Part shown: piece by piece, positions 1 to 64,000 of the stretch
Numbering within the stretch: the stretch's first letter is position 1
Layout of the letters: each line of letters opens with the position of its first letter
NCBI RefSeq assembly: GCF_000238075.1
Contig: NZ_JH414504.1
Coordinates: 157,709-221,708 of the forward strand
Source of the DNA: Oribacterium asaccharolyticum ACB7
GTDB taxonomy: Bacteria; Bacillota; Clostridia; Lachnospirales; Lachnospiraceae
DNA length: 64,000 bases
Reading direction: 5' to 3'
Position numbers and translations under genes: made by a program
Notes under the pieces: generated by a model
Told to the model about the DNA's origin: nothing
What the model saw: only the letters and a program-made list of their open reading frames with translations
Database searches by the model: none

Positions 1-86
1 AGTCCAAGGATTTGGAGCAGTTCCAAGTGGGACAAGGAAAAAAAACAAGGACTATCTCAATAAATACTAACGCAAGCACAAGTATA

Positions 87-127
87 AAATAGGCTAAAGT
101 GACTTATCAGCCTATTTATGATATAAT
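87..127 (+). promoter_or_regulatory. Promoter and inverted repeat upstream of the XRE gene
   Basis: A perfect -10 box TATAAT lies at 122-127. A weak -35 (GTGACT, 99-104) lies 17 nt upstream. A perfect 9-bp inverted repeat, AAATAGGCT (87-95) and AGCCTATTT (109-117), brackets the -35. It could be an operator for autoregulation by the XRE protein, or the terminator hairpin of the gene entering from the left; the sequence does not decide. Positions 1-86 show no gene I can identify. Confidence 0.45.
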
Positions 128-162
128 ATATCTTAACAATAAAACGGATAAGGGGTAATAAT

Positions 163-375
163 ATGGCAATTTCTTATAAACCATTATGGCACTTATTGGT
201 AGAAAGAGAAATGAACAAAGAAGACTTAAAAAGAGCTGCAAACATAACAAGTAACATAGTTTCTAGAATGAGCAAAAACTCTTATGTGAACTTAGAATCA
301 TTAGAAAAGATTTGCCTGGCATTGGATTGCAGAATTGAAGATGTTATAGAAATTCATAGAAATGAGGTGGAATAA
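163..375 (+). CDS. Small XRE/Cro-CI-type helix-turn-helix regulator
   Basis: A 70-residue protein that is essentially one helix-turn-helix domain. The recognition region around residues 22-50 (NITSNIVSRMSKNSYVNLES) and the tail 'LEKICLALDCRIEDVIEI' are typical of the short Cro/CI-like regulators common on integrative elements of Firmicutes. Start ATG 163 follows an AAGGGG ribosome binding site. It lies in the AT-rich left block and is 36 nt upstream of the selenoprotein-like gene, so it may control it; the inverted repeat at 87-117 is a candidate operator. Such proteins regulate transcription in the cytoplasm; the target is an inference. Product class is confident, the regulon unknown. Confidence 0.8.
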   Translation: MAISYKPLWHLLVEREMNKEDLKRAANITSNIVSRMSKNSYVNLESLEKICLALDCRIEDVIEIHRNEVE

Positions 376-411
376 AATGAAGAAAATATTTTTTAGAAAG
401 GAGGAAATAAA

Positions 412-969
412 GTGAGTCAAGAAAATAAGATAAATCAATCTTGCTGAGGTTCAATACAAAAAACCACTGGTACAGTGGAAGAAAAAGCAAATTGCCCCAA
501 ATGTCACAAAATAGGAGAAAAGGTTAAGAATATAACTGTAAAGCATATGGTATCAGAAAACCTTATGGGAAAGGTTGTAGATGAAGAAACTTACTATTTA
601 TGTATGAATGAAGATTGTGATGTCGTGTATTATAACTTAAACAATGAAAGAGTTTTTTATAAGGAAGATGTAAAAGTTCCTATATGGTTTAAAAAGGATG
701 CAAATCCCAAATATATATGCTATTGCAACCAAGTTACAGAGCAACAAATTATAAACGCTGTTTTAGATGATGGTGCAAAGAATATTAAAGATATTATTAG
801 ACTTACAGGGGCAATGAAAAATGGAAAGTGCGAAATTAACAATCCTTTGGGAAAATGCTGTAGTCCTTTTATTCAAGAAACCATCAATAAGGCATTAAAA
901 GGCTATAAATGTAATATAGAAGAGCAAACTTATAGTATGAAAAGGCTTGACGTAGAAGATGAAAGTTAA
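412..969 (+). CDS. CopZ-like [2Fe-2S] selenoprotein (UGA at 445-447 read as selenocysteine)
   Basis: The frame open from 475 continues upstream through one in-frame TGA (445-447) to a GTG at 412. That GTG has a perfect AAAGGAGG site (397-404) 7 nt before it; the GTG at 475 has none. Read this way the protein has 185 residues and starts MSQENKINQSC-U-GS, a Cys-Sec pair. A zinc-ribbon-like region follows (CPKC, later C-x5-C), then a C-terminal BFD/CopZ-type [2Fe-2S] domain with Cys at CYC, GKC and KCC. Archaeoglobus CopZ has this arrangement, delivering electrons and copper to a P-type ATPase; I recall that Clostridia contain a related family with Sec-containing members. Role here is probably redox or metal handling. 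If TGA is a true stop, a 175-residue fragment without an RBS would remain, which is less likely. The gene is AT-rich relative to what follows it. Confidence 0.72.
464..478 (+). promoter_or_regulatory. Candidate bacterial SECIS hairpin
   Basis: CCACTG-GTA-CAGTGG forms a perfect 6-bp stem with a 3-nt loop whose first base is G. The loop begins 22 nt after the TGA at 445-447, inside the roughly 16-37 nt spacing known for bacterial SECIS elements recognised by SelB. It lies within the coding sequence, as bacterial SECIS elements do. Sequence-level support only; a folding search would be needed for more. Confidence 0.5.
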
Positions 970-979
970 GGAAACAGGA

Positions 980-1720
980 ATGAGAGTCTTGATAGCGGAT
1001 GATGAAGAACGAATTTGCGAGTTGATTCAGTTTTTGGGTGATTTTCAGGAGGAAGGCATGGAATGTCTCCCCTTTGCAAAGACGGGAAAAGAGGCTTTGG
1101 AAAGGGTGGAGAAAGAACTTCCGGAGCTTTTGATTACGGATATTAAGATGCCCGTTTTTTCAGGACTGGATATAGCCAAAGAAATTGCCAGAAAGAAACT
1201 TCCTACCAAGGTTATTATTATTTCCGCCTATTCAGACTTTTCCTATGCCAAGGAGGGAATACAGGCAGGGGTGTCGGACTATCTGTTAAAACCGATTAAG
1301 AAAAAGGAACTGCAGGAAAGCGTTCGGAAGATTAAGGAAGAATTGACTGGGCCAAGTCTGGAAACCATGATGAAAGATATGCCTTGCTCTCATTTGGTTT
1401 CTTTGTCTAAAAAGTATATTGACCGACATTTTGAGGAGAATATCGGTTTGGAGGAAGTGGCAGAGTATTGTAAGGTCAGCGCCTCTTATTTAAGCACACA
1501 GTTTAAGAAGGAATTGTCGCTTGGTGTCAATAAGTATATTTCAGGGCTTCGAATGGAAAGAGCCAAGCTGCTTTTGGCAGAGACCAATTTGAGTATTACG
1601 GAAATTGCCTCCCAACTGTTTTATTATGATACAAAATATTTTTCCAAATGTTTTTTTGAGAAAATGGGAATGAATCCCAAGGACTATAGGAATTCCTTAC
1701 ATGAAAATCGGAGTGAGTAA
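980..1720 (+). CDS. Response regulator, REC plus AraC-type DNA-binding domain
   Basis: A 246-residue two-component regulator. The receiver domain (about 1-118) has the acidic pair at D7/D8, the phospho-acceptor Asp54 in DIKMP, and the conserved Lys near 104 (LLKP). The last ~100 residues hold two AraC-type helix-turn-helix motifs ending in the typical 'YYDTKYFSKCFFEKMGMNP'. Start ATG 980 is chosen over ATG 959 because it gives the canonical MRVLIADDE beginning and follows AAGGAAA. The kinase gene overlaps its end by 20 nt, so the two are a pair. Such regulators usually control sugar ABC transporters in Clostridia. The AT-rich block abuts the start directly, so the native upstream neighbour and promoter may be missing. 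Confidence 0.9.
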   Translation: MRVLIADDEERICELIQFLGDFQEEGMECLPFAKTGKEALERVEKELPELLITDIKMPVFSGLDIAKEIARKKLPTKVIIISAYSDFSYAKEGIQAGVSDYLLKPIKKKELQESVRKIKEELTGPSLETMMKDMPCSHLVSLSKKYIDRHFEENIGLEEVAEYCKVSASYLSTQFKKELSLGVNKYISGLRMERAKLLLAETNLSITEIASQLFYYDTKYFSKCFFEKMGMNPKDYRNSLHENRSE

Positions 1721-3551
1721 GACAGAACATAAATCGAAATCGGGACAAGGCTTAGTAAGAGCAGAGAAGAATGGTCTGAGTTCCTTATCCTCTCGCCTTC
1801 TTCGACTGTATGCTCTAACGCTGGCTTTATTTTTGTTATCTATTTTTATTATTTACCTACTGCTCGCAACAGGAGGCAGCTTCTTTCAGACGGGAATGAA
1901 ACTGCTTCTTCTGGGGCTTCTATGTCTTTGTATATTGACACTTGCTTATTTTTATTATGACGTTCTCAGACCTTATAAAAGGTATCAGTCCACACTGCGA
2001 AGAGTCCTGGAGGGTTATAGCGAAGTGCAGGAATTGCAGGAGCTTCCGGTTTATCTGACAGAGGAAAGTCATGAAGAATACCATTATATTTCAGAAATCC
2101 TCAGTGCCAATAAAATTATAGAAGAAGGGGAAAAACTGGCCTATATACAAAACCTGCAAAACCAGATGAATCCTCATTTTCTCTATAATATTCTGGAAAA
2201 TATTCGCTCGGAAAGTCTTTTAAACGGATTGGAGTCAGTAGCAAACATGGCAGAGCTTTTGGGTGATTTCTATCGTTATACCATTTCCCAGGAGGAGAAC
2301 TTTGTTTCTTTAAAAGAGGAACTGGACAATACGGAAGTATATTTTCAAATTCAACGATTTCGTTTTTCTAAAAAACTGGAACTGGAAGTGAAGGTGCAAG
2401 AGGATTTGTTATCGCTAAAAGTACCAAGAATCTTATTGCAACCTATCGTGGAAAATAGTATTGTGCATGGTTTAGAGGGAAGAGAAACCGGAGGAAAGGT
2501 AGGGATTTCCATTAGCCGCAGTAATCGGCATGTTTATATTCAAGTCTCTGATGATGGCATCGGCATAGAGGAGGAGAAGCTAAGACAGATAAATGAAGAT
2601 CTTCGGAATATCCGTAGAGGATTTCAAGGAGGTGTAGTGGGAAAAAGGGATATGGGGAAGGCCGGAATGGGAGTTTCTCTCCTGAATATTCAGGAAAGAA
2701 TCCATTTGCTCTACGGACGGGAATACGGTTTATATTTGCAGTCCTTAGAAAATGCCGGAACGGATGTGTGCATGGTACTTCCCCGAAAACTTTCCGTAAA
2801 GCAAGAAGAGGAAAGTTTTATCAGTGAAAGTCTGAATCTTTTGTCCGAGGAAGAAAATGCTTTGATTATTAACACAATCAGTACTAAAGAGCCGGAAAAA
2901 GAAGAACTTCTCTTTGCTTTAGAGCTGTATCTGTCCGAGGGAACTCAATTTTCTGTAGAAAATCTATCCTTTCAGCTTTTTTCCGGAGAAAGCCTGATGC
3001 TTTTGTCTTTGGACAAACCTATTCCCAAGGACTTGGTCGTAGCCTTGAACGCTGAGAAAGAGTTGTATTACGGTTGTGTAAAGTCCTATGAGAGCATGAT
3101 GAAAACTGTTCCGAAGGTCTGGATGGTAGGTGATGGTAGCTCTTTAATAGAGGGGCAGAATGTGCTTTCTAATCTTTTTGTCTATCAGCCGGAATATCCA
3201 CATTTTCTCCTTCGAAATAAAGAATTGATTACAGGATATAAAGACTTGTTTCCGGAACTTTCCAAAGAAATTCCTTATCAAGAGCAGGTAGAAAATTTGG
3301 AAGAAAAACAGAGAATCTTAGTGGAAATCATGAAAGGAATGATTGCCGGCGCCAGAGTCTTTGCTTTATGGGAAGTCCATCTGGGGAAAGAGGAGGAGAC
3401 AGAGCTTTATGCCTATATAGAAAAATGGAAGAAAGAAGGCCATGCCTTTTTGTTTTTCTCTTCTAAGCCTTCGGATGCTGAAAAGCCCTGTGAGCGATTG
3501 GGGATCTGGAAGGAGGGGAGAATATTGAAGATAATTACTAACTCACAGTAA
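1701..3551 (+). CDS. LytS-type sensor histidine kinase fused to a degenerate sugar-ABC-ATPase-like domain
   Basis: 616 residues. Two membrane helices (about 37-57 and 66-86) with almost no extracellular loop are followed by a His_kinase region with phospho-acceptor His159 in NPHFLYN. The ATPase part has N-box ENSIVHG (251-257), DDGIGI (284-289) and GMGVSL (322-327). Residues ~415-616 do not belong to a kinase. Their order and spacing follow the second half of RbsA/MglA-type ATPases: 'VENLSFQLFSGESLMLLS', 'VGDGSSLIEGQNVLSNLF', 'NLEEKQRILVEIMKGMIAGARVF...' and 'EGHAFLFFSSKPSD'. Walker A, the LSGG signature and Walker B are all lost, so it cannot hydrolyse ATP as an ABC protein does; a regulatory or sensing role is inferred. 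Partner of the upstream response regulator. Confidence 0.85.
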   Translation: MKIGVSKTEHKSKSGQGLVRAEKNGLSSLSSRLLRLYALTLALFLLSIFIIYLLLATGGSFFQTGMKLLLLGLLCLCILTLAYFYYDVLRPYKRYQSTLRRVLEGYSEVQELQELPVYLTEESHEEYHYISEILSANKIIEEGEKLAYIQNLQNQMNPHFLYNILENIRSESLLNGLESVANMAELLGDFYRYTISQEENFVSLKEELDNTEVYFQIQRFRFSKKLELEVKVQEDLLSLKVPRILLQPIVENSIVHGLEGRETGGKVGISISRSNRHVYIQVSDDGIGIEEEKLRQINEDLRNIRRGFQGGVVGKRDMGKAGMGVSLLNIQERIHLLYGREYGLYLQSLENAGTDVCMVLPRKLSVKQEEESFISESLNLLSEEENALIINTISTKEPEKEELLFALELYLSEGTQFSVENLSFQLFSGESLMLLSLDKPIPKDLVVALNAEKELYYGCVKSYESMMKTVPKVWMVGDGSSLIEGQNVLSNLFVYQPEYPHFLLRNKELITGYKDLFPELSKEIPYQEQVENLEEKQRILVEIMKGMIAGARVFALWEVHLGKEEETELYAYIEKWKKEGHAFLFFSSKPSDAEKPCERLGIWKEGRILKIITNSQ

Positions 3552-3565
3552 AGGAGTCTTTTACT

Positions 3566-3694
3566 TTGGCAAAACGAAACACATTGATACTCTTCGCTTG
3601 CTGAGTCCGGAGTATTGCGGTATTTTATACGGGGATTGGGGCTTCACTCTTTCTTGCAGGAGTCCTTTTCGGCTATCCATTTTTGAAAATGTAA
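3566..3694 (+). pseudogene. Possible remnant of a membrane or exported protein gene with in-frame TGA
   Basis: An AAAGGAG site (3550-3556) overlaps the kinase stop and is 9 nt before a TTG at 3566. The frame gives LAKRNTLILFAC, a TGA at 3602, then a hydrophobic stretch 'VRSIAVFYTGIGASLFLAG' and stops at 3692. This looks like the signal/anchor end of an otherwise deleted gene, perhaps the substrate-binding component that often follows such a two-component pair. Nothing identifiable follows. It could also be chance; confidence is low. Confidence 0.2.
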
Positions 3695-3717
3695 AGAGGG
3701 TAAAGATTGGAGGAATT

Positions 3718-4440
3718 ATGCAGTATCAAATTATAGGAGATAACGATTGTCCCATCTTGGAAATCTACTTAAATGCAGGGGAAGCGGTGAAAATCGAACG
3801 CGGTTCCATGGCCTATATGTGCGGTGTGGAATTACAGGGGAAAATGAATTCCGGCTCAAACGGAGGCGGTCTTGGAGGTCTACTTAGTGCCGTGGGAAGA
3901 AGTATTGCTAGCGGAGAAAGTATGTTTATTACCGAAGCAAGAGGCGTGATGAACGGCGGAAGAATCGGTGTGGCTCCCGCCATTCCCGGGAAAATTGTTT
4001 GCTTACCGATTGGAGAAAAGCAGTATCGCTTAAATACGGGGGCCTTTTTGGCAGGAGATTATTCTGTAGGATATGCCATGAAGATGCAGGATATCGGGAA
4101 AGCTTTTTTTGGCGGTACAGGAGGACTTTTCGTGATGGAAACGGAAGGGCAGGGCGATGTTTTTGTCAATGCTTTCGGAGACCTTTTAGAGCTGGAAGTG
4201 CATCCGGATTGTCCGATGACCATTGACAATGACCATGTGGTAGCGTGGGATAGAAATCTGGACTATCATATTTCCGTGGCTTCCGGAACCTTTGGCTTTA
4301 CCACCGGAGAGGGTCTCGTAAACCGTTTTGTAGGAGAAGGAAAGGTGTATATTCAGACTAGAAACTTAAGCAGTCTGGCTTCCGCTTTGCCTCTTGCCAG
4401 AATGAATAAAAATAGCGGAAAAGGCGGATTTTCGTTCTAG
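3718..4440 (+). CDS. AIM24 / TIGR00266 family protein
   Basis: 240 residues, beginning MQYQIIGDNDCPILEIYL after a GGAGG site (3707-3711); an upstream in-frame extension to 3598 lacks a binding site and is not used. Glycine-rich beta-strand repeats ('MNSGSNGGGLGGLLSAVGR', 'GKAFFGGTGGLFVMETEGQG') and the closing 'LASALPLAR' are characteristic of the AIM24 (old DUF124) family. These are beta-helix-like proteins related to mitochondrial AIM24; bacterial function is not established. No transmembrane helix is seen. Followed by a strong terminator, so it ends its transcription unit. Confidence 0.88.
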   Translation: MQYQIIGDNDCPILEIYLNAGEAVKIERGSMAYMCGVELQGKMNSGSNGGGLGGLLSAVGRSIASGESMFITEARGVMNGGRIGVAPAIPGKIVCLPIGEKQYRLNTGAFLAGDYSVGYAMKMQDIGKAFFGGTGGLFVMETEGQGDVFVNAFGDLLELEVHPDCPMTIDNDHVVAWDRNLDYHISVASGTFGFTTGEGLVNRFVGEGKVYIQTRNLSSLASALPLARMNKNSGKGGFSF

Positions 4441-4478
4441 CTTGATTTTTCCTGTCAGAGAACGCCCGGCATAGCAAA

Positions 4479-4508
4479 AGAGAATCGGTAAAGCCGATTC
4501 TCTTTTTT
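4479..4508 (+). terminator. Rho-independent terminator after the AIM24 gene
   Basis: Perfect 10-bp stem AGAGAATCGG / CCGATTCTCT with loop TAAAG, followed by a run of T. It separates the AIM24 gene from the zinc operon. Confidence 0.92.
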
Positions 4509-4584: not shown

Positions 4585-4638
4585 ATGAAAACGGTTTTCA
4601 TTTTAAGGCAAAGAAAATGTGAAAATGACGGAGGAAGT

Positions 4639-5079
4639 ATGGCTGAAAAAACCATTTATAAAACCCAACATAAAGAGGAGCTTTTATCCTACCTTTCTAC
4701 TTGTCCCGGTATGCACTTTACGGTGTCGGATCTGGTTTCTCATTTTCGGGAGGAGGGAAAACCAATCGGCACAACCACGGTTTATCGACAGTTGGAGCGA
4801 CTGTGCGAAAAAGGAGTGGTAAACAAATACATCATCGACCAGAACAGTCCGGCTTGCTTTGAGTATGTCGGAGAAGGGGAAAAGGCGGAGGAAGCCCATT
4901 CCTGTTTTCATTGCAAGTGCAATGTCTGCGGGAAACTCATTCACTTACACTGCCATGACCTTGAGGGGATGATGCAACACCTCCTTACGCACCACGGTTT
5001 TCACTGGGATTCCAAGAAAACGGTCTTCTACGGATTATGTGCAGACTGTGCCAAGAAAGAGGAGCAGAACAAACTATAG
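4639..5079 (+). CDS. zur: Fur-family metalloregulator, probably Zur
   Basis: 146 residues. The N-terminal winged helix contains 'GTTTVYRQLERLCEKGVV', the signature recognition helix region of Fur proteins. The C-terminal part has the Cys4 structural zinc site (CNVCG and LCADC) and a His/Cys-rich segment (HSCFHC, HLHCHD). Start ATG 4639 follows GGAGGAA; the longer reading from 4585 has no binding site. It lies 24 nt upstream of znuA in what looks like one operon, so Zur (zinc repressor) is more likely than Fur or PerR, by context. It would repress the uptake genes when zinc is ample. Confidence 0.85.
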   Translation: MAEKTIYKTQHKEELLSYLSTCPGMHFTVSDLVSHFREEGKPIGTTTVYRQLERLCEKGVVNKYIIDQNSPACFEYVGEGEKAEEAHSCFHCKCNVCGKLIHLHCHDLEGMMQHLLTHHGFHWDSKKTVFYGLCADCAKKEEQNKL

Positions 5080-5103
5080 TATTTTCAAGAAAGGAGCCTC
5101 AAG

Positions 5104-6207
5104 ATGAGACTGAAAAAATGCATTTTGGCGGGAGGAATCTTGCTTTCCACTGCCGTACTGTTTGCCTGTGGAAACAAGAGCGGTAAAGAAGCGGAGACAA
5201 CAGCCGCTGCTGTAACAACCGATGCGGAAAAGAGTATGGAAACCGAAAAAAGTACGGATAAGCCCACAGAAGGAAAAAAGTTACAGATTGTGACCACAAA
5301 TTTCCCCTCCTATGATTTTGCCCGTGCCATTACCAAAGAAGATGCGGATGTTACCATGCTGGTTAAGCCGGGTGCGGAAACGCACAGTTTTGAACCGAGT
5401 CCGCAGGACATTATCACCATTCAGAATGCGGATCTCTTTATCTATACCGGGGGAGACAGCGACGAATGGGTAGACGGAATTCTGGAATCCGTGCAGAATA
5501 AAAATTTCCATGTGTTTAAGATGATGGATGCCGTAAATCTCATCGAAGAAGAGACGGTAGAAGGCATGCAGGAAGAAGAGCATGAGCATGACCATGCGGA
5601 TGCAGACCATGCGAATGAGGAAGCAGACCATGACCATGAAAAAGCGGATCAGGCTGAAGAGCATGAAGAGGAAGGTCCGGAAATGGATGAGCATGTTTGG
5701 ACTTCCCCGAAAAATGCCATTACCATTGTAGAAAAGCTGGAAGAGACTCTTTCCGGACTTGATGAGAGCCATAAAGAGAACTTCAAGGCAAACAGTGACT
5801 CCTATGTCAAGGAACTTGAGGAGCTGGATAAGAGTTTTAAGGAAGTAGTGGACAGCGGAAAGAGAAAAGAAATCATTGTGGCGGATCGTTTCCCCTTTGC
5901 TTATTTCTGTAAGGAATACGGCTTAAGCTACTTTGCCGCTTTTCCGGGATGCTCAACCGATACCCAGCCGTCTGCAGCAACCATTGCTTTCTTAACGGAT
6001 AAGGTTAAGGAAGATAAGATTCCGGTTGTTTTCCATATCGAAATGGGAAATGAGGATATGGTCAATGCCATCAGTAAAGATACCGGGGCAAAGAAGCTGC
6101 TGCTTAATTCCGTGCACAATGTGACAGACAGCGATTTTAAGGCAGGAAAGACCTATGTGGATCTGATGAAGCCGAATGTGGAAGCTTTAAAGGAGGCGTT
6201 AAACTAG
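5104..6207 (+). CDS. znuA: Zinc ABC transporter substrate-binding lipoprotein
   Basis: 367 residues with a lipoprotein signal (lipobox LFAC, Cys about residue 22) and a threonine/glutamate-rich linker. The ZnuA/TroA fold follows: 'VTTNFPSYDFARAI', 'GAETHSFEPSPQDI', and a central His/Asp/Glu-rich loop (HEHDHADADHANEEADHDHE) typical of zinc-specific members. Then come 'DEHVWTSPKNA' and the closing helices. The His in ETHSF, the one in DEHVW, a third in FHIEMG and an acidic residue near the C-terminus are the expected metal ligands. Anchored outside the membrane, it hands zinc to ZnuB. The stop is directly followed by the znuC start. Confidence 0.93.
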   Translation: MRLKKCILAGGILLSTAVLFACGNKSGKEAETTAAAVTTDAEKSMETEKSTDKPTEGKKLQIVTTNFPSYDFARAITKEDADVTMLVKPGAETHSFEPSPQDIITIQNADLFIYTGGDSDEWVDGILESVQNKNFHVFKMMDAVNLIEEETVEGMQEEEHEHDHADADHANEEADHDHEKADQAEEHEEEGPEMDEHVWTSPKNAITIVEKLEETLSGLDESHKENFKANSDSYVKELEELDKSFKEVVDSGKRKEIIVADRFPFAYFCKEYGLSYFAAFPGCSTDTQPSAATIAFLTDKVKEDKIPVVFHIEMGNEDMVNAISKDTGAKKLLLNSVHNVTDSDFKAGKTYVDLMKPNVEALKEALN

Positions 6208-6918
6208 ATGTCCTATATATCCCTTAACAATGTTGGATTTTCCTACGAGGGAAAGACGGTATTGTCCGATATTCATTTCTCCGTAGAAAAAGGCGACTAC
6301 CTTTGTATTGTTGGGGAAAACGGCGCAGGAAAAAGTACCCTTTTGAAGGGACTTTTGGGCTTAAAGAAAGCGAGTGAGGGGAGCATTGTCTTCGGAGACG
6401 GTTTGAAGGCAAATGAAATCGGCTACCTTCCCCAGCAAACCGAAAGCCAAAAGGATTTTCCCGCCAGCTGTTATGAGGTAGTAGAGTCGGGTAGATTAAA
6501 TAAACTTTCGTTTTTCCTTTTTATTCGAAAGGAAGATAAGAAGAGCGTGGAAGACGCTATGGAGTACTTAAAGGTGACAGGTCTTAAGAAGTCTTGCTTC
6601 AGAGACCTGTCCGGCGGACAACGGCAGAGGGTTCTTTTAGCAAGAGCCCTCTGTGCCAGCGAAAAACTCCTCGTGGTGGATGAGCCGGTTGCCGGACTGG
6701 ATCCTCTCGCACAGAAAGAGCTCTATGAAATGCTCGATAAGTTAAATAAAGAAAAGGGGATGACCATTATCATGGTTTCTCATGATGTGAAGGAAGTGGT
6801 GCAGCGTGCAAAAACCATTCTGCACCTTGACCGTACACAGCGCTTTTTCGGAAGTGCAGAGGACTATCTTTCCTCGAAGTGGGGGAAACTTTTGGTAAAG
6901 GAGGAAGAAAATGCTTAA
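6208..6918 (+). CDS. znuC: Zinc ABC transporter ATP-binding protein
   Basis: 236 residues. Walker A GENGAGKST, Q-loop LPQQT, signature LSGGQRQR, Walker B 'LLVVDEPVAGLD' and switch His in VSHD are all intact. The start touches the stop of znuA and the gene overlaps znuB by 8 nt, so the three subunits are translationally coupled. It powers import through ZnuB from the cytoplasmic side. Confidence 0.94.
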   Translation: MSYISLNNVGFSYEGKTVLSDIHFSVEKGDYLCIVGENGAGKSTLLKGLLGLKKASEGSIVFGDGLKANEIGYLPQQTESQKDFPASCYEVVESGRLNKLSFFLFIRKEDKKSVEDAMEYLKVTGLKKSCFRDLSGGQRQRVLLARALCASEKLLVVDEPVAGLDPLAQKELYEMLDKLNKEKGMTIIMVSHDVKEVVQRAKTILHLDRTQRFFGSAEDYLSSKWGKLLVKEEENA

Positions 6919-7735
6919 TTCTTTACTGAAAATGTTCCAGTACGACTTTATGATTCGTGCTCTTGTGGTCGGAGGTCTGGTTTCTTTGTGTTCCGCCCTT
7001 CTTGGAACAAGCCTTGTTTTAAAACGGTATTCCATGATTGGAGACGGTCTTTCCCATGTGGGCTTTGCGTCATTGGCCATAGCTTATGCCCTTAATTTCG
7101 CACCGATGTCGGTATCCATTCCGGTCTGTGTAGTGGCGGCATTTTTCCTCCTGCAGCTGGAAGAGAGCTCCAAAATAAAGGGGGACGCGGCTACGGCACT
7201 GCTCTGCAGCGGGGCTTTGGCTGTCGGTGTTATGACGATATCCCTAACCTCCGGAATGAATACGGATGTGTGCAACTATATGTTCGGATCCATTTTGGCC
7301 ATCAGCCCTTCGGATCTTAGGCTTTCCGTCGTCCTTTCCATAGTGGTTTTATTCTTATATATTGTGTTTTATCCGCGGATTTTTGCGGTTACTTTTGATG
7401 AGAGTTTTGCGAAGGCCAGCGGTACCAATACACGCTTTTACAATATGGTTTTGGCACTTCTTACCTCCATTACCATTGTGCTCGGAATGCGCATGATGGG
7501 AACCTTGCTGATTTCCAGCTTGATCGTATTCCCTTCCATTACGGCGATGCGGGTATGCAAGAACTTCCTTTCGACGATTCTTGTAGCGGCGCTTCTTTCG
7601 CTCTTCGGTTTTATTGTCGGAATCAGTCTGTCCTTTTTGCACAGTATTCCTACAGGAGCGTCCATTGTTATTGTAGATATGATTTTGTTCTTCCTATTCT
7701 TAGGCCTTGAGATGCTGCGGAACAGAAAGAGTTAG
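6911..7735 (+). CDS. znuB: Zinc ABC transporter permease
   Basis: 274 residues, about eight hydrophobic segments, with the ABC-3 family signature near the N-terminus ('MIGDGLSHVGFASLAIAYAL') and the coupling region 'RMMGTLLISSLIVFPSITAM'. Family proteins form the membrane channel for zinc or manganese; the His-rich loop in ZnuA and the adjacent Zur favour zinc. Overlaps znuC by 8 nt. Confidence 0.93.
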   Translation: MLNSLLKMFQYDFMIRALVVGGLVSLCSALLGTSLVLKRYSMIGDGLSHVGFASLAIAYALNFAPMSVSIPVCVVAAFFLLQLEESSKIKGDAATALLCSGALAVGVMTISLTSGMNTDVCNYMFGSILAISPSDLRLSVVLSIVVLFLYIVFYPRIFAVTFDESFAKASGTNTRFYNMVLALLTSITIVLGMRMMGTLLISSLIVFPSITAMRVCKNFLSTILVAALLSLFGFIVGISLSFLHSIPTGASIVIVDMILFFLFLGLEMLRNRKS

Positions 7736-63617: not shown

Positions 63618-64000
63618 GTATGACGGGCATGCCGTCAATCTGTGGTGCAAGTCCACAAGGGGCGTAGTTGCCGACGAACCCCATAGCGACTCCCAAGGTT
63701 TACATCGCGAGGTGTAGGCGAGAAGAAGGGATAGCGAAATCGTAGCCTGACGAACAGAAACCTGATATTAAGGCGTTTACGGCGGATGAGCTGGCTAAAA
63801 GCAGCAAAGTCCAAAAGGCAACCGTAACCCGTAGGCGTAAATCAGGCAGGTAGACGAGGAAAGACTGGCAGGCTTATCCCGTGAGGTCTCACAGACGAGG
63901 AAACTCGCCGTAGCAACAACGAACTGTGAGAAGTCAGCAGAAGCCGTAGTAGGTATGATTCTGAAATGGATGATACCGAAGGGCTGAACAAGGTAACTGT
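63618..64000 (+). mobile_element. Group II intron, 5' part (runs off the window)
   Basis: From about 63618 (GTATG) the sequence changes to a structured non-coding RNA with no long open frame. It begins with hairpin TGACGG-GCATG-CCGTCA (63621-63637) and continues with segments I recognise from domain I of intron families common in gut Clostridia, such as GACGAACCCCATAGCGACTC, GTAGCCTGACGAACAGAAAC and GGGCTGAACAAGGTAACTGT. The reverse transcriptase/maturase gene would lie beyond 64000. The exact 5' splice site is uncertain by a few bases. Confidence 0.82.

Follow-up and report, generated by a model that had tools for sequence, protein, structure and literature searches.

A probable selenocysteine codon in a CopZ-like gene on recently transferred DNA of Oribacterium asaccharolyticum

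Near the start of a copZ-like gene in Oribacterium asaccharolyticum ACB7 the reading frame is crossed by a TGA codon, which raises the questions whether this codon ends translation or is decoded as selenocysteine (Sec), what the protein might do, and how the gene came to lie where it does. The gene is located in a stretch of 64,000 nucleotides (contig NZ_JH414504.1, positions 157,709 to 221,708), referred to here as the window, where it is preceded by the end of a gene and a small HTH_26 regulator and followed by an AraC-type response regulator and a histidine kinase (Table 1). An earlier note on this DNA had described a ribosome binding site that serves a GTG at 412, from which translation meets the TGA directly after a Cys codon, and this arrangement was confirmed on the sequence; translation of 412-969 with the TGA read as Sec indeed gives one continuous protein of 185 residues. 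As the same note had anticipated, standard gene calling misses the N-terminus: mechanical ORF calling yields just 475-969, starting at a GTG (475-477) that has no ribosome binding site before it on inspection by eye and that falls within the 3' arm of the hairpin described below. The site at 397-404 is the only good one, and the reading frame upstream of the TGA is kept in the group of closely related copies that we call the mobile clade (L001-L013). TGA is an ordinary stop codon here, ending 8 of the 47 non-overlapping window ORFs of at least 150 aa. An in-frame UGA within an otherwise continuous conserved frame is what characterizes a bacterial selenoprotein gene, and the selenoprotein reading of 412-969 is, at the level of sequence, well supported.

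Table 1. Features in and around the copZ-like gene (window coordinates)
Feature	Position	Strand	Evidence and remarks
Second shared segment	2-241 (from 2 or 9)	+	91-98% identity in 5 of the 11 genomes sharing 385-903; blastn
Small HTH_26 (XRE/Cro-type) regulator	163-375	+	Directly upstream of the copZ-like gene; PF13443, 61.7 bits
Shared DNA segment	385-903 (to 899 or 910 in some)	+	96.5-99.2% identity in 11 genomes outside Oribacterium; blastn
Ribosome binding site AAAGGAGG	397-404	+	Read directly
Putative CopZ_Nterm_CU selenoprotein gene	412-969	+	GTG start 412-414, TAA stop 967-969, Sec12; NCBIfam NF045877
Cys11-Sec12 codon pair TGC-TGA (predicted)	442-447 (TGC 442-444, TGA 445-447)	+	Sec/Cys exchange in relatives
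Candidate bacterial SECIS hairpin	464-478	+	6-bp stem 464-469/473-478, loop GUA 470-472, 16 nt after UGA
zf_CopZ zinc-binding domain	487-675	+	Residues 26-88; Cys28, 31, 64, 69; Pfam PF18423, 86.6 bits
Fer2_BFD [2Fe-2S] domain	712-831	+	Residues 101-140; Pfam PF04324, 30.1 bits
C-terminal tail	904-969	+	Only in window and O. parvum among the loci fetched; ORF crosses from shared segment into host DNA
AraC-type response regulator	959-1720		Downstream of the copZ-like gene
Histidine kinase	1701-3551		After the response regulator

The TGA is followed by a putative SECIS hairpin. RNAalifold, applied to 24 distinct TGA-bearing sequences starting at the TGA (the window and 23 relatives, leaving out L029 and L039 (TGA before Cys)), predicts one hairpin, exactly in the register of the window. 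Across these sequences all six stem pairs show compensatory changes on both sides and 96.5% of cells are paired. The covariation score is 0.656 against a shuffle mean of 0.382, with none of 500 shuffles as good, and it drops to at most 0.305 when the partner is slid by 1-3 columns; less telling measures are the number of covarying pairs, reached by 29 of the 500 shuffles, and the number of pair types, reached by 206. In L011 and L012, ATT...ATG replaces ACT...GTG, which alters two amino acids and keeps the pair, and a 6-nt deletion in L029 leaves the same five pairs 6 nt closer to the UGA. When identical sequences are counted once, with L039 placed among the non-TGA rows and 13 unmatched loci absent, a mean of 4.76 of the 5 inner pairs is in register in TGA forms (25 distinct), versus 2.63 in non-TGA forms (35 distinct), and all five are in register in 22 of 25 TGA rows versus 3 of 35 others (L005, L030 and L039). 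With shifts of up to 9 nt permitted, five pairs are found in 23 of 25 TGA rows and in 9 of 35 non-TGA rows, and thus only the fixed register separates the two groups well. As a check on chance, 20 of the 1712 TGA triplets on both strands of the window have five pairs in the exact register, and three, including that of the gene itself, have five pairs together with GT at loop positions 2-3.

The bSECIS model given in the available text of PMC13188914 specifies a loop of 3-9 nt, a stem of 4-16 bp, G in the first two loop positions, a UGA-to-loop distance of 16-37 nt and an energy of -7.5 or lower. The window hairpin conforms to this model, with 22 nt to the loop and an energy of -7.5 kcal/mol that lies exactly at the limit; among three TGA-bearing relatives that were folded, L019 (-8.7) is within the energy limit and L011 (-5.2) and L036 (-7.3) are outside it. 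Folding of the single window sequence was rejected as proof of a SECIS element, as its result is not significant (13 of 200 shuffles as good for the hairpin, and 76 of 200 for a 59-nt stretch); the weight of the hairpin evidence is the covariation across relatives. An Rfam scan of the window assigned no family to the hairpin; its hits were one tRNA and two group II intron pieces, the latter at the right end (63701-63984), and scans of L001, L007, L010, L036 and L124 found nothing.

The residues that relatives carry at the TGA position point in the same direction. The earlier note had named Cys or Sec there in homologues, a criterion for selenoprotein genes, as supporting evidence, and both are found: 67 of 80 GTDB loci fit the pattern of a pair, with Cys-TGA in 29, TGA-Cys in one, Cys-Cys in 34, Cys-Gly in two and Cys-Trp in one. 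The other 13 loci are outside the pattern; by eye, L072 has Cys-TGA, L024 Cys-Cys and L035 TGA-Ser-Cys, L015, L021 and L033 are tail-less, and the remainder are without the pair or cut. The three tail-less loci, all Tissierella relatives, represent the form that the earlier note regarded as contrary evidence, namely homologues that start past the TGA; this form exists but is confined to this minority. Sec precedes Cys in L039 (TGA-TGT at L039:5998-6003) and stands two residues ahead of it in L035, and these variants indicate that Sec can occupy more than one place in the tail. In the mobile clade the codon is TGA in 10 of 13 copies, TGT in L002 and L009, and GGA in L005; that is, the Sec codon turned to Cys twice and to Gly once, and L002 and L009 each lack one inner stem pair and L005 none. 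A quick tree of 73 of the 87 rows, in which 9 of 66 inner branches are starred, requires a minimum of five switches between TGA and other codons, three of them forced by starred branches. It follows from the tail-less Tissierella relatives and the Gly in L005 that the Sec residue is not always needed. We consider it very probable that Sec is inserted at UGA 445.

Decoding of UGA 445, aided by the hairpin, would require Sec machinery in the host, and the earlier note had proposed a search for the sel genes. This search was run on the congeners O. parvum and O. sinus, and selA, selB, selD and tRNA-Sec were all over cut-off in both, selD itself having one TGA in each. O. parvum is colinear with the window (93% over the first 4.5 kb), and the results for the two congeners suggest that the ACB7 strain possesses a SelA/SelB/SelD/tRNA-Sec system by which the codon would be read. 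Both congeners also have a second, distant SelB beside D-proline reductase genes (L117:4351-6282 in O. parvum, L118:3871-5868 in O. sinus), which is 37% identical to the SelB that follows selA in O. parvum. Matches to prdA and prdB were obtained in O. parvum, and in both species the prdB frame is interrupted by a TGA. The two SelB paralogues per genome may read different SECIS elements. Over a broader set of 38 genomes, SelB and tRNA-Sec were both over cut-off in 18 of 19 with the Cys-TGA or TGA-Cys form and in 15 of 19 others, so that Sec machinery is a weak predictor of the TGA form. Mobilitalea sibirica (L019, genome G018), outside the mobile clade, has a TGA-form copZ with an intact hairpin, and its genome yielded no selA, selB, selD or tRNA-Sec over cut-off; this copZ may be a stranded selenoprotein gene, or there may be a gap in the assembly.

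As for its family, the protein scores 266.8 bits with NCBIfam NF045877 (CopZ_Nterm_CU; cut-off 190) and 91.1 with NF047645 (CopZ_Nterm_CC), below the cut-off of 100; the latter model describes a putative iron-sulphur cluster-binding metallochaperone with a related domain and Cys-Cys at the N-terminus. NF045877, the Csac_0668 family 2Fe-2S cluster-binding (seleno)protein, has the same domain order as the window protein. There are indeed Sec-containing relatives in Clostridia, as the earlier note had mentioned, and the family already has an NCBI model under the name '(seleno)protein'. It is also tabulated as a selenoprotein family with motif CU (PMC13188914, in the text available) and as CopZ-family form 2 (PMC9312934, likewise in its available part). 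Since the family is already known, Sec coding here is not new. For Csac_0668 of Caldicellulosiruptor, the accessible text of PMC4510573 proposes a role in hydrogen production from homology and context, a suggestion that counts against the soft-metal role considered below. What distinguishes the window copy from NF045877 is the host-derived C-terminal tail (904-969), the recently transferred DNA and the XRE regulator in front.

Pfam gives only zf_CopZ and Fer2_BFD, and an HMA copper-binding domain is absent. Besides the four cysteines of the zinc ribbon, Cys103, 105 and 140 in the Fer2_BFD region and Cys149 and 150 just past the match are conserved; the count per position for these nine is 111-120 among 120 aligned rows, made up of the query plus 119 homologues out of 120 listed (the short P0102 being omitted), so that the zinc ribbon and BFD ligand-type cysteines characteristic of NF045877 are all kept. 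A structure model built from 120 sequences (pLDDT 82.8, residues 1-23 with low confidence), which replaced a poor first model from 17 sequences (pLDDT 60.8), has as its best PDB match 2hu9, the N-terminal domain of Archaeoglobus fulgidus CopZ (Foldseek E 1.7e-11), which the protein also matches by sequence (phmmer E 2e-21). The two proteins share the Zn ribbon and the BFD-type [2Fe-2S] domain. The A. fulgidus Fe-S domain, however, is fused to a CopZ-like copper chaperone, a part that the window protein does not have, whereas the window protein adds an N-terminal tail, predicted to be flexible, that would carry the Cys-Sec pair. The CopZ-like name used in the earlier note holds for the fold, but a copper role is not established by the name.

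The genes next to relatives of the copZ-like gene give indications about its role. Clustering placed metal-related neighbours in operon-like order at 12 of the 80 GTDB loci: the order ArsR-merA-copZ occurs in six (L022, L030, L031, L036, L053 and L059), and in six further loci ArsR ends at or just inside the copZ start. Three merA products that were tested score 573.2, 560.9 and 561.4, over the MerA cut-off of 454.45; they exceed the dihydrolipoyl dehydrogenase cut-off as well, though by less (423-429 versus 408.8). MerA is over cut-off in all five genomes of the six ArsR-merA-copZ loci but in none of the 13 mobile-clade genomes; the gene is thus not a regular member of mer operons, genome content does not support mercury as the substrate of the cassette, and the mer neighbourhoods do not settle the metal. 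No metal-resistance gene was seen by eye beside the cassette in the ORF lists of L001, L002, L004, L007, L010 and L012. In L126 a P-ATPase precedes the Cys form, scoring 529.6 with the cadmium family (cut-off 313.5) and 372 with the copper model (cut-off 397). Among 28 plasmid records with protein matches, five of lower identity were examined (H7, H11-H14); all five proteins have a Cys-Cys N-terminus and pass CopZ_Nterm_CC, and their annotated neighbours are an Hg-type merR (three), a MerR-family regulator (one), and ArsR with a metal P-ATPase (one). The two best matches are a Cys form on the conjugative Anaerococcus plasmid pAPRE01, where the annotation shows no metal gene inside 8 kb, and a TGA form in an unannotated region of a 2.6 Mb record. 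In the window itself, a Fur-family regulator and ZnuA, followed by what appear by eye to be an ABC ATPase and a permease, lie at 4585-7735, 3.6 kb from the gene; this closeness is probably accidental, because the selenoprotein gene is a recent arrival.

Based on these neighbours, a role as soft-metal metallochaperone or scavenger with a Cys-Sec tail has, in our view, slightly better than even chances, the metal and the partner being the least firm parts of it. The folded part would consist of the zinc ribbon and the BFD-type [2Fe-2S] domain; the tail could capture a soft metal ion (Hg, Cd, Cu or similar) by its thiolate-selenolate pair, the Fe-S centre could supply or buffer electrons, and the metal might be handed to an efflux pump or reductase, or simply be held. 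Taken as a whole, the reading as a Sec-containing member of the Csac_0668/CopZ_Nterm_CU family that handles soft metals and lies on recently transferred DNA seems to us reasonably probable.

Other explanations have to be weighed against this reading. The one that survives best accepts the selenoprotein and assigns it to thiol/disulphide redox chemistry with a thioredoxin partner instead of metal handling. The Cys-Sec pair is a classical redox motif, and in 4 of the 13 mobile copies (L003, L010, L011 and L013, with the identity tested on the proteins of L010, L011 and L013) only 2 nt separate the end of a Thioredoxin_9-type gene from the matched start; in L009 such a gene lies 194 nt upstream. 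However, in the wider family it is metal regulators and MerA that recur beside the gene, with P-type ATPases in L126 and on plasmids, and among the 80 loci no thioredoxin cluster reaching four loci was found outside the mobile clade. We consider a pure redox role unlikely, if still a serious competitor. Less likely again, and in our opinion improbable, is a copper-specific chaperone of the Archaeoglobus CopZ type. Apart from the fold match to 2hu9, this explanation draws on the reduction of Cu(II) by A. fulgidus CopZ through its Fe-S domain, as described in the available text of PMC7558416, but the missing HMA domain and the cadmium-type score of the L126 ATPase argue against it.

The remaining explanations concern the codon itself. 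If the TGA were a plain stop, the copy would be decayed or N-terminally truncated, and a functional protein would start past the TGA. The mechanical ORF from 475, the tail-less Tissierella relatives and the Mobilitalea TGA form without Sec genes over cut-off are compatible with this idea. On the other hand, the part of the frame ahead of the TGA is maintained in the mobile clade and lies behind the only good ribosome binding site, the hairpin covaries, and L002 and L009 have Cys in place of Sec at this codon, which makes a plain stop very improbable. Reading of the TGA as tryptophan (code 4 type), to which the Sec column of the database homologues might seem to point (Trp in 61 of the 83 that have a residue there, Cys in 21 and Glu in one), is rejected as scarcely credible on the stop usage given above and on the DNA of relatives, since the 13 closest loci have TGA, TGT or GGA, never TGG, and the sole TGG among the 80 loci is in the distant L074. 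Many of the Trp entries are on short contigs and, in view of the codons in the DNA of close relatives, they look like products of gene calling with table/code 4.

With the Sec reading preferred, we return to how the gene reached its present place. Firstly, the 11 genomes outside Oribacterium (Lachnospiraceae) that share the segment carrying it are of Peptoniphilaceae type (L002-L006 and L008-L013). Secondly, within the genus, window positions 163-910 match O. parvum without a difference for 748 bp, against 91.7% identity in the flank 911-4480, and O. sinus is 99.3% identical over 743 bp but has other genes at its flanks. For comparison, the selA locus of O. parvum shows patches of 66-70%, or nothing at E 1e-5, against five of the 11 genomes, and 67-74% against O. 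sinus. Thirdly, the genes around the mobile copies vary. Hence, the gene almost certainly moved recently between Oribacterium and distant anaerobes. Window positions 9-353 are 96.2% identical to DNA preceding a type I restriction subunit M gene in Aerococcus, and hsdM-type ORFs are found near four copies (L009, L010, L011 and L013; that of L013, which was tested, scores 765.8 bits over 242.75). The gene would thus have entered the window as recently transferred DNA and would now be preceded by a small XRE regulator seen elsewhere ahead of a type I restriction module.

Phage records gave no match, either for the protein or for the DNA of 385-910. In a 34.8-kb IMG/VR contig, putatively a phage or phage-plasmid, ArsR stands before a TGA-form copZ (L124:7646-8507). 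Downstream of the cassette in L002 lie an unnamed 125-aa ORF and a TIR-domain ORF (L002:6642-7951), a setting that points to a defence island; relatives of the 125-aa ORF are present in 8 of the 13 mobile copies. Pfam gave no name for this ORF, nor for the 200-aa ORF of L012, the 38-aa ORF of L006 and the 129-aa ORF of L007.

Oribacterium, Anaerococcus, Finegoldia, Fenollaria, Ezakiella and Peptoniphilus are anaerobes of human mucosa. We tentatively propose, at somewhat less than even chances, that a Sec-dependent gene for protection against soft metals may be mobile cargo among such anaerobes, bringing its own SECIS element and using the Sec machinery of its hosts, and that it would be a transferable rather than a core trait. 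In the mobile copies Sec would have given way to Cys or Gly and the hairpin would have begun to decay, and a related TGA form would, in Mobilitalea, have reached a host without Sec machinery over cut-off. Among the open-access entries listed, judged by title and abstract start, none dealt with the spread of this gene or with its presence in Oribacterium.

The analysis exposes two annotation errors, namely the N-terminus cut by ORF calling and the Trp at the Sec position in many database entries. The near-identical copies in distant hosts would mean that a UGA-recoded gene has recently been crossing family boundaries. Moreover, the mobile copies provide natural Sec, Cys and Gly versions on nearly the same protein background and, therefore, the question why this protein keeps selenium becomes directly testable.
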